A DNA stretch of 64,000 nt, taken from assembly GCA_003671275.1 (NCBI GenBank), contig QWPB01000024.1:1-64000 (forward strand), written 5' to 3'. Below are positions 46,369 through 50,145 of the stretch, piece by piece (the first letter of the stretch is position 1; every line of letters starts with the position of its first letter). The position numbers were made by a program, and so were the translations under genes. This stretch comes from Planctomycetota bacterium. Its GTDB lineage: Bacteria > Planctomycetota > Planctomycetia > Planctomycetales > Planctomycetaceae. Below the pieces are notes generated by a model that saw only the letters and a program-made list of their open reading frames with translations, had not been told where the DNA came from and did no database searches.

Positions 46369-46736
46369 GCCGCCAGCCGTACGGACGAAAGCCCAGTCAC
46401 GGTGAACCATGGGCTGAAGAGGGGTCGTATACTCCCCGAACGCCTTCCCGGTCAAGGTGAATCGCCGCAACCACTCTCTCTACAAGCATTTGGCAAGAGA
46501 TTGGTGGTCAGTTGCGAGTCTTGCGTCCCGTGTAGTTCCGCTCGCTCTGAGGATTCCAGTCGCGACGGTCATAGTGGGGGACAGAATGGAAAATATCTCC
46601 AGTCGCTCAACTATTTCATTGAAGTCCGGTTTCGGCGTTCGATAAGATCGATGAGAGTGTGTTGTCACTTCGGCGGGTTTCCGTTCTCTCAAAACCGGAA
46701 CTGCCTCTCTTGCTGAATTCCCGAAAAGGTCTAGCC
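46369..46736. other. divergent promoter region for LptF-like and glycine-rich genes
   Basis: About 368 bp without a gene. A possible plus-strand promoter is TTGAAG with GATAAG 16 bp downstream (near 46619-46646), about 90 bp before the glycine-rich protein's start; the match is only moderate. The sequence aaaaggtctagcc before 46737 provides a weak ribosome-binding site. Confidence 0.4.
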
Positions 46737-47570
46737 ATGGTCCGTGGACGTTGGCGTCTGGTTCCGTTGTGCGTGGCAGCTGCCATCGCGTCTTTGGCCT
46801 TTGCGGCAATCCCCGGGACGTACGCCGCTGAAAAGGCGGAACGTAAGCCGGTGATGAGGCACCTGAAGTACGATCCGACCGCCCCCAAGTCCGGTCTGTT
46901 TGAGGCCATGGACGAAGGTAAGGTTTCGGTTCGTCTCGTTTCCAAAGACGAGTTCGAAGGGCATCTGCTGGTTGAGAATAAGACGGACGCCCCGTTGACC
47001 ATCGAACTTCCTGAAGCCTTTGTGGGTGTGCAAGTCCTTGCCCAAGGCTTTGGGGGCGGCGGTGGTGGCTTTGGTGGCCAGGGCGGCGGCGGATTCGGCG
47101 GCCAGGGTGGTCAGGGTGGCGGTCAGGGCCAGGCATCGGGCGGCGGATTTGGCGGACAGGGTGGCCAAGGCGGCGGCGGATTCGGCGGCCAAGGTGGTCA
47201 GGGTGGCGGGGGCGGATTCTTCTCGATTCCGGTGGCCACCATCGCCAAGGTTCCGGTCACCTCGGTTTGCCTCGAACACGGCAAGAAATCTCCCCGGGCT
47301 TCCATGAACTACACCATTGTTCGTCCCGACAAATACTCGTCGGACCCCCGCGTTCATGAAGTCTGCAAGCTCGTGGGGACGGGCAAGATCGATCGAGCCA
47401 CCGCTCAGGCAGCAGCTTGGCACGTCTGCAACAACATGTCGTGGGAACAGCTCGCACAAAAGATGTACAACCATGTTGGTTCTCCGGACACCCCGTACTT
47501 CAGCCGGAGCCAGCTGATGGCGGCCCAGTCAATGGTGGCTGCGGTCGATGTCCGCGTTGCCGAGAACTAA
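46737..47570 (+). CDS. secreted glycine-rich protein of unknown function
   Basis: A 277-aa exported protein with a signal peptide (VPLCVAAAIASLAFAAIPGTYAAE). A first domain (about 35-100, VRLVSKDEFEGHLLVENKTDAPLTIELPEAF) looks like an Ig/CARDB-type beta fold. A block of about 60 residues made of GGFGGQGGQGG units separates it from a second domain (about 165-277), which includes VTSVCLEHGK and ends at RVAEN. The stop is a TAA, but the same frame stays open beyond it for 23 more codons (EKNETPTTPGDTGTPRQTSSLSN), so the real end may be 47642 or the last part may have been lost by mutation. A strong terminator follows at 47665. Confidence 0.82.
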   Translation: MVRGRWRLVPLCVAAAIASLAFAAIPGTYAAEKAERKPVMRHLKYDPTAPKSGLFEAMDEGKVSVRLVSKDEFEGHLLVENKTDAPLTIELPEAFVGVQVLAQGFGGGGGGFGGQGGGGFGGQGGQGGGQGQASGGGFGGQGGQGGGGFGGQGGQGGGGGFFSIPVATIAKVPVTSVCLEHGKKSPRASMNYTIVRPDKYSSDPRVHEVCKLVGTGKIDRATAQAAAWHVCNNMSWEQLAQKMYNHVGSPDTPYFSRSQLMAAQSMVAAVDVRVAEN

Positions 47571-47664
47571 GAGAAGAACGAGACGCCGACTACTCCGGGT
47601 GATACGGGCACCCCGCGGCAGACCAGCAGCCTCTCCAACTAACGGGTTGGAAGAACCGCTTACT

Positions 47665-48544: not shown

Positions 48545-48669
48545 CCTCACCCGAGTCAGAACTTGAGTTGCAGCCGGGGGCCAATCCAGAGAGTATGCTT
48601 GTTGTAGTAAGGTGGGAGTCATCGCGAGAGGGCTCCCCATGGCAACAGTCAACTTGGCGGCGGCGCGCG

Positions 48670-48810
48670 ATGACCGACAGCAGCGATGGTCTGAACTTTG
48701 ACTTTCTAAACGAGCCGACGACATCTCGGGCCGTTCCTCTCCCGCCGCCGGTACCGCCCGCTCCCGTCGTAGCCCCCGCGTCGGAAGACACCTTGGAATT
48801 AGAGTTCTAA
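48670..48810 (+). CDS. N-terminal fragment of a membrane-protein gene cut by an in-frame TAA
   Basis: Forty-six codons from ATG 48670 (MTDSSDGLNFDFLNEP...) to TAA 48808-48810. The same frame continues after the stop without another interruption into the 390-aa ORF that is reported from a GTG at 48973. The intervening 54 codons read ESDDPGSSIFDEPFSSPIQS and so on, acidic and Pro/Ser-rich like the rest of the N-terminal part. The fragment is therefore probably the beginning of that gene and not a separate small protein. Confidence 0.6.
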   Translation: MTDSSDGLNFDFLNEPTTSRAVPLPPPVPPAPVVAPASEDTLELEF

Positions 48811-48972
48811 GAATCGGACGATCCGGGCTCATCGATCTTTGACGAGCCATTTTCCAGTCCGATCCAATCCGTAGATCAGATTTCCGATGCTGAGCCCAAC
48901 GTTTCTGACGGCACGGAAGTCCTTGTCCGTGGGCGAACCGAGATCCAGGATTTCGCAGAAGAATTCGGCCAG

Positions 48973-50145
48973 GTGGTCGTCCCGACGAAAAACGCAGAGC
49001 CGCCTGTGGACCTGAGTGGTACTCTCGAATCCGTCACCGCTCCAAACGAGTCCGTGTCAGTGCCAGCAGTGTCAGCACCCCCTTCGGAGCCCGTCGACTC
49101 CGGATTGGATTGGCCTGTCGACGCGACCGATGTCGACCCCCCCACGACAATCGAGGAGATTGCACCGCTCGAATTCCACAGCCCGTTGTCACTGCCCGCA
49201 GAATCAATGGTCCCGGAGCCATCGGCAGAAGTCGCTCCCCCCTCAGAGACATCGGCCCCCCCGTCCGCCCCCATCGAGTCCTCGCAGGCCTTTAACGATC
49301 AGGGGATGTCTCTGGAACCGGACACCCATTCCGCTGATGACAGCCTGTCACTGGATGGTCTGACGGGAGTGGTCAGTGACGCCGTGGCCGGGGGAGTTGT
49401 GGCCGCCGTGGCCCCTCCTCCGGGGGCTGTTGCCGCAGGGAACAGCCGGACGGTCCTGATCGCTTTGGGGGGATATGCGCTGGTCGTGACGGCTCTGTGC
49501 CTGTACCTGCTGACGCAGGTTGCCAAGGCCCGCAGCGAAAACAAGCTGGAGAGTCTGCCCGACGTGCGGCAGGTTCTGAACATCCCCATCAACTCACAAC
49601 TGCCAGCGGGACATACGCTGGCCTTGGGAGAAAAACAGCGGTTTGGGAACCTGCTCGTGGAACCGTTGCGGGTGACCACCGGCCCGCTGGAGGTCGTGCA
49701 TTTCAGTGAGCGCGACAAAACGACCATCATGAAGAGCCAGGTGCTCAAGCTTTGGGTTCGACTGACGAACGAGTCGAAGGATCAGGCGTTTATTCCGCTC
49801 GATCGCCAGCTGGTGTTCAAGCGGCACTTTCGGGATGACGTTTGCTTTGCGAATAACTTTGTTGTCCCCGCCAGCAAGAAGGCGTCCGGAGGTCCCGTCG
49901 TATTCGTATACGACCACCCCGAAACCAGCGAGTGGGATCTGTCCGGACAGGATCTCGGTAAAACATTGGGGCCCGGTGAATCCTGGGAAACCTATATCCC
50001 GACGACGGAAGACGGCCTCGAAGAACTGCAAGGCGAGTTGCTCTGGCGCGTTCACGTCCGCAAGGGACTTTCTCCCAAGGGCGGGGGTGTGACCACCCTG
50101 GTGGAAGTCGCATTTCACGACGACCAAATCCAGAACGAAGGTTAA
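48973..50145 (+). CDS. single-pass membrane protein of unknown function (probably 5'-truncated by TAA at 48808)
   Basis: The 390-aa frame starts at a GTG, but it is in phase with the ATG at 48670; without the TAA at 48808-48810 the product would be 491 aa. The first 150 residues are acidic, Pro/Ser/Val-rich and probably disordered, followed by a single transmembrane helix (TVLIALGGYALVVTALCLYLL) and a beta-rich extracytoplasmic domain (about 200-390; KLWVRLTNESKDQAFIPLD, FVYDHPETSEWDLSG). Such membrane proteins with a C-terminal beta domain are common but uncharacterised in planctomycetes. The 3' end overlaps the converging FIST gene by 4 bp. Confidence 0.7.
   Translation: MVVPTKNAEPPVDLSGTLESVTAPNESVSVPAVSAPPSEPVDSGLDWPVDATDVDPPTTIEEIAPLEFHSPLSLPAESMVPEPSAEVAPPSETSAPPSAPIESSQAFNDQGMSLEPDTHSADDSLSLDGLTGVVSDAVAGGVVAAVAPPPGAVAAGNSRTVLIALGGYALVVTALCLYLLTQVAKARSENKLESLPDVRQVLNIPINSQLPAGHTLALGEKQRFGNLLVEPLRVTTGPLEVVHFSERDKTTIMKSQVLKLWVRLTNESKDQAFIPLDRQLVFKRHFRDDVCFANNFVVPASKKASGGPVVFVYDHPETSEWDLSGQDLGKTLGPGESWETYIPTTEDGLEELQGELLWRVHVRKGLSPKGGGVTTLVEVAFHDDQIQNEG

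Follow-up and report, generated by a model that had tools for sequence, protein, structure and literature searches.

Closest described structures and genes

The protein domain considered here finds its best structural matches in two DUF4352-type sandwiches, YjhA of B. subtilis (3cfu) and CD630_09570 of C. difficile (5bxg). The domain belongs to a gene in the window, the whole 64,000-nucleotide stretch of DNA that was analysed, which lies on contig C163 of a draft Planctomycetota genome (5.03 Mb, 198 contigs). A 247-residue AlphaFold model of the gene's product has one helix, also found by hydropathy, followed by a confident beta-sandwich (mean pLDDT 90.7). With Foldseek, 3cfu was the top match, at an E-value of 9e-4 and a probability of 1.00 but a TMq of only 0.36, and 5bxg matched at 5e-3. 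Identity to the two structures is 9-11%, the TM-score by query length is 0.32-0.36, and there is no Pfam sequence match. Since the TM-scores are low, the likeness to DUF4352/YjhA suggests the fold type only. Sequence searches of Pfam, NCBIfam and the PDB gave no significant match; in Pfam, no family was found at E 0.1 for the window protein and no DUF4352 match in any of 21 family members. The product is predicted to be a single-pass membrane protein with an acidic Pro/Ser-rich tail, one helix and a beta-sandwich, and we infer that the tail is cytoplasmic and the sandwich outside.

A Planctomycetaceae family (L137-L216) shares with the window gene the C-terminal domain (32-50% identity), one membrane helix and a variable acidic tail, and the relatives nearest in the tree also share NFDFL- or SSIFDE-type motifs with it. 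Unlike the window gene, all family members are open across the site of its stop, and most start with a CxxC...CxxC zinc-ribbon-like segment. Nonsense-interrupted bacterial genes, such as recent pseudogenes and truncation alleles, resemble the window gene in having a single in-frame stop, a conserved frame and intact relatives.

Layout of the interrupted frame

From ATG 48670 to TAA 50143-50145 the DNA forms one frame, and its sole break is the TAA at 48808-48810, codon 47. The sequence and its translation agree on this point, which the sequence-only reading had described in the same way. After the codon-47 TAA, 444 codons are open up to the final stop. The features of the gene are:

48670..50145, + strand: whole interrupted gene for a predicted single-pass membrane protein; of its 491 codon positions, one is the in-frame TAA (translation; homologues open through the region)
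48670..48807, + strand: first 46 codons, acidic Pro/Ser-rich N-terminus (N-terminal motif common to relatives)
48694..48708, + strand: NFDFL motif, 8 residues after the start Met (in relatives, [DN]F[SDQ][FW]L 8-15 residues after Met)
48808..48810, + strand: premature in-frame TAA, codon 47 (sequence and translation)
48811..48972, + strand: 54 codons from the TAA to the first downstream start codon, containing the SSIFDE and TEVLVRGR motifs (translation, start-codon scan)
48829..48846, + strand: SSIFDE motif; relatives have SSIFDE, SSVFDD, SSVFDE or SSVFHD (motif comparison)
48913..48936, + strand: TEVLVRGR, resembling PTVVIKGK or PTILMPGR of relatives, a weaker match (motif comparison)
48973..50145, + strand: downstream ORF of 390 aa that starts at GTG and encodes the only conventional post-stop product (start-codon scan)
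49444..49536, + strand: transmembrane helix (hydropathy; AlphaFold helix 15-45)
49615..50136, + strand: predicted C-terminal beta-sandwich with a DUF4352/YjhA-like fold (AlphaFold, Foldseek)

GTG 48973 is the first ATG, GTG or TTG 3' of the codon-47 TAA, and no clear ribosome-binding site was seen for it. The openness of the 46 codons before the TAA is not significant alone, because a stretch of that length has a chance of about 22% of staying open (by arithmetic, at 60% GC, where about 3% of codons are stops). In another frame, the beginning of the interrupted gene is overlapped by a 20-codon ORF at 48639-48701, whose ATG is preceded by AGAGGG.

Homology on both sides of the stop

A single-sequence search of genome contigs for relatives found nothing, and an alignment-based search of the contigs succeeded, yielding 80 named Planctomycetota loci (L137-L216) with the membrane-protein domain. 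Relatives of the post-helix domain were found in 34 of 59 genomes, with no inner stops among the matches listed. They come from Planctomycetaceae, mostly uncultured. Upstream of the matched domain their frames stay open for 54 to 463 residues, three of them reaching a contig end, and the premature stop of the window gene is absent from all of the approximately 80 relatives.

Family motifs were found on either side of the TAA. At least 11 relatives begin with a Met that has [DN]F[SDQ][FW]L 8-15 residues further on, as does MTDSSDGLNFDFL in the window. The second motif, SS[IV]F[DH][DE], is carried by L142, L152, L155, L159, L168 and L178, and in the window it stands directly after the TAA. Both motifs are in frame and upstream of GTG 48973. 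Within about 345 kb of the same genome, the NFDFL-type motif follows only one of 8183 ATGs, ATG 48670 itself, and SS[IV]F[DH][DE] occurs once in 690,652 six-frame residues, at the window site; because the motifs were picked after the sequences had been viewed, the counts serve as a measure of specificity rather than as formal P-values.

If the halves were separate genes, a 46-residue peptide would be followed by a membrane protein started at GTG 48973, which is a possible start. This arrangement is very improbable: L159 and L168 join the N-terminal motif, the post-stop motif and the membrane domain in one frame, and SSIFDE and TEVLVRGR lie between the TAA and the GTG with no ATG, GTG or TTG start able to express them. 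The sequence-only reading had stated that homologues starting at GTG 48973 would make the upstream part irrelevant; the comparison does not refute the single gene, since the motifs of that part are present in relatives. The homology on both sides of the stop is the decisive evidence and, on these comparisons, ATG 48670 to TAA 50143-50145 is a single gene split by one stop. The earlier description of a membrane-protein gene divided by one TAA therefore holds.

The window gene has the conserved helix and the ESLPD...WRVH-RKG...GVTT family domain, and departs from the family in that its frame does not run unbroken between the N-terminal motif and the C-terminus. Its C-terminal domain retains the residues that are invariant across 44 sequences, and there is no second lesion. 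Thus one gene carries one stop, its relatives are open, and the rest of its frame is intact. In the tree, the terminal branch of the window's domain is 0.59, compared with a median of 0.37, a length that may or may not reflect relaxed constraint. With weak support (84), the window gene groups with relatives that do not have the zinc-ribbon-like start, and CxxC pairs are absent from the window gene and from its nearest tree relatives, L137-L142, L149, L159 and L168. The gene was absent from the incomplete assemblies of two same-genus genomes (G001 and G002), and no common gene order was found with contig C34 of G029.

Across the family, two kinds of N-terminus accompany the membrane domain: a zinc-ribbon-like one with CxxC...CxxC, or an acidic tail that carries motifs of the [DN]F[DS][FW]L type. 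Motifs of the latter type were also found inside the zinc-ribbon members L189, L190 and L157.

A second stop in a glycine-rich neighbour

A nearby glycine-rich gene also ends early:

46659..47570, + strand: glycine-rich gene, ending early at TAA 47568-47570 (sequence; relatives)
47571..47642, + strand: continuation of the glycine-rich gene, a read-on tail of 23 codons with a second TAA, the tail similar in length to those of relatives (comparison with relatives)

The sequence-only reading had proposed a second event in this gene, and the comparison bears it out, since in 29 of 29 relatives the frame goes on for 10-29 codons beyond the position of TAA 47568-47570. The read-on tail is similar to the tails of the relatives. 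The loss of the tail may be harmless, as the tails of this family are poorly conserved. The two nonsense codons are 1.24 kb apart, and two stops so close together in a draft assembly are suspicious.

Recent mutation or consensus error

A lone stop with the conserved domain intact indicates a lesion that is either recent or not real. For the codon-47 TAA, the likeliest origins are an ordinary mutation of recent date and a base error in the draft genome. We lean, by a little over even, towards a recent single-base nonsense mutation at codon 47 of this membrane-protein gene, which is conserved in Planctomycetaceae. Its supports are the open homologues, the flanking family motifs, the intact domain, the absence from the genome of a second copy of the gene's DNA and the lack of a UAA-reading tRNA among the 43 found. 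Against it counts the presence of two nonsense codons 1.24 kb apart when none was confirmed in approximately 115 family genes elsewhere in the genome.

That survey covered genes of the DUF1559, sulfatase and kinase families in the same genome and found two frameshifted genes only, a DUF1559 gene on contig C150 and a kinase gene on C86. Two TAA codons in the former were rejected as nonsense codons, being out-of-frame text beside the frameshift, and a TGA in the latter was rejected for its position at a contig edge and its frame offset (from coordinates only). The DUF1559 (SBP_bac_10) gene, L135 (G000 C150:27500-30500, minus strand), is apparently frameshifted near LYNKQTRNTPLVD, by decay or assembly error. 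With none in 115, the true nonsense rate is at most about 2.6% per gene (95% upper bound). At rates up to that value, chance alone should produce a few such pairs of nearby genes in each genome, and the two stops need not have a common cause. A codon-usage scan for same-frame text across stops gave few other candidate stops; it was set aside because the genome's bias is too weak, and neither TAA passed its thresholds.

A serious possibility, with a likelihood clearly below even, is that the codon-47 TAA is a wrong consensus base of a draft metagenome assembly, caused by sequencing error, low depth or strain mixing, and that the living gene is intact. The fragmentation of the genome fits this explanation, as do the otherwise conserved frame with no further lesion, the closeness of both stops on one contig and the two frameshifted genes of the survey (C86 at a contig edge). 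However, random substitution errors yield a stop only about once in 20, and two stops would imply dozens of wrong bases nearby, whereas the domains of the neighbouring genes are complete and no further interruption is seen in them. In the SDR, FIST, LptF/LptG and RraA-like neighbours the Pfam domains are full-length or nearly so; the earlier suggestion of local decay therefore finds nothing beyond the two stops. A systematic miscall yielding CTAAGA was also rejected, as this hexamer is neither enriched nor depleted (11 observed versus 7.7 expected in 345 kb, both strands). A literature search for how often metagenome assemblies contain premature stops yielded no base rate.

Under a recent mutation, a single-base change, either in the organism itself or in a fraction of the population that was sampled, would make codon 47 TAA, and most ribosomes starting at ATG 48670 would terminate after 46 residues. 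Any remaining product would be a shortened protein from GTG 48973 or another internal start. It would be without the first part of the cytoplasmic tail and would keep the membrane helix and the outer beta-sandwich. We infer a real base, efficient termination and a shortened product. The shortened tail may be tolerated, because the relatives' tails vary so greatly in length upstream of the domain.

Proposed read-through of the stops

Programmed or suppressed read-through would decode TAA in both genes and give full-length proteins. The CTAAGA common to both stops and the coding text that goes on in frame past both are what speaks for it. The shared TAAGA context, pointed out in the sequence-only reading, is indeed present at both stops, but it is weak evidence, because CTAAGA is not enriched and codons beginning with GA are common in Asp/Glu-rich text. 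None of the 43 tRNAs found, all ordinary, has a UAA-reading anticodon. TAA terminates 26 of 78 long training ORFs, and a suppressor would therefore affect a third of genes. Relatives are free of stops at both sites, and RNA folds near both stops are unremarkable (z -1.5 and -0.8). The surveyed family genes, with no confirmed in-frame nonsense codon among them, likewise argue against recoding. Read-through measured in bacteria at UAG and UGA (UAA was not measured) generally stays far under 1%, E. coli UGA being the exception (PMC9481147).

Read-through is therefore unlikely, and the earlier proposal of read-through sites is not borne out. We consider decoding of TAA in both genes extremely improbable. 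Equally improbable is measurable TAA read-through at both CTAAGA sites that would give short and long proteins of two neighbouring genes from one message.

Meaning for the gene family

On present evidence the phenomenon is ordinary and its overall importance small. Read-through, if true, would be unusual for TAA in a bacterium, and the evidence points the opposite way. Two gene models are corrected, with a start at 48670 instead of 48973 for the membrane protein and a longer tail, in relatives, for the neighbouring glycine-rich gene. A widespread Planctomycetaceae membrane-protein family that has no Pfam or NCBIfam model is now described, and its cytoplasmic end comes in two forms, one zinc-ribbon-like and one acidic, the latter carrying short aromatic motifs.
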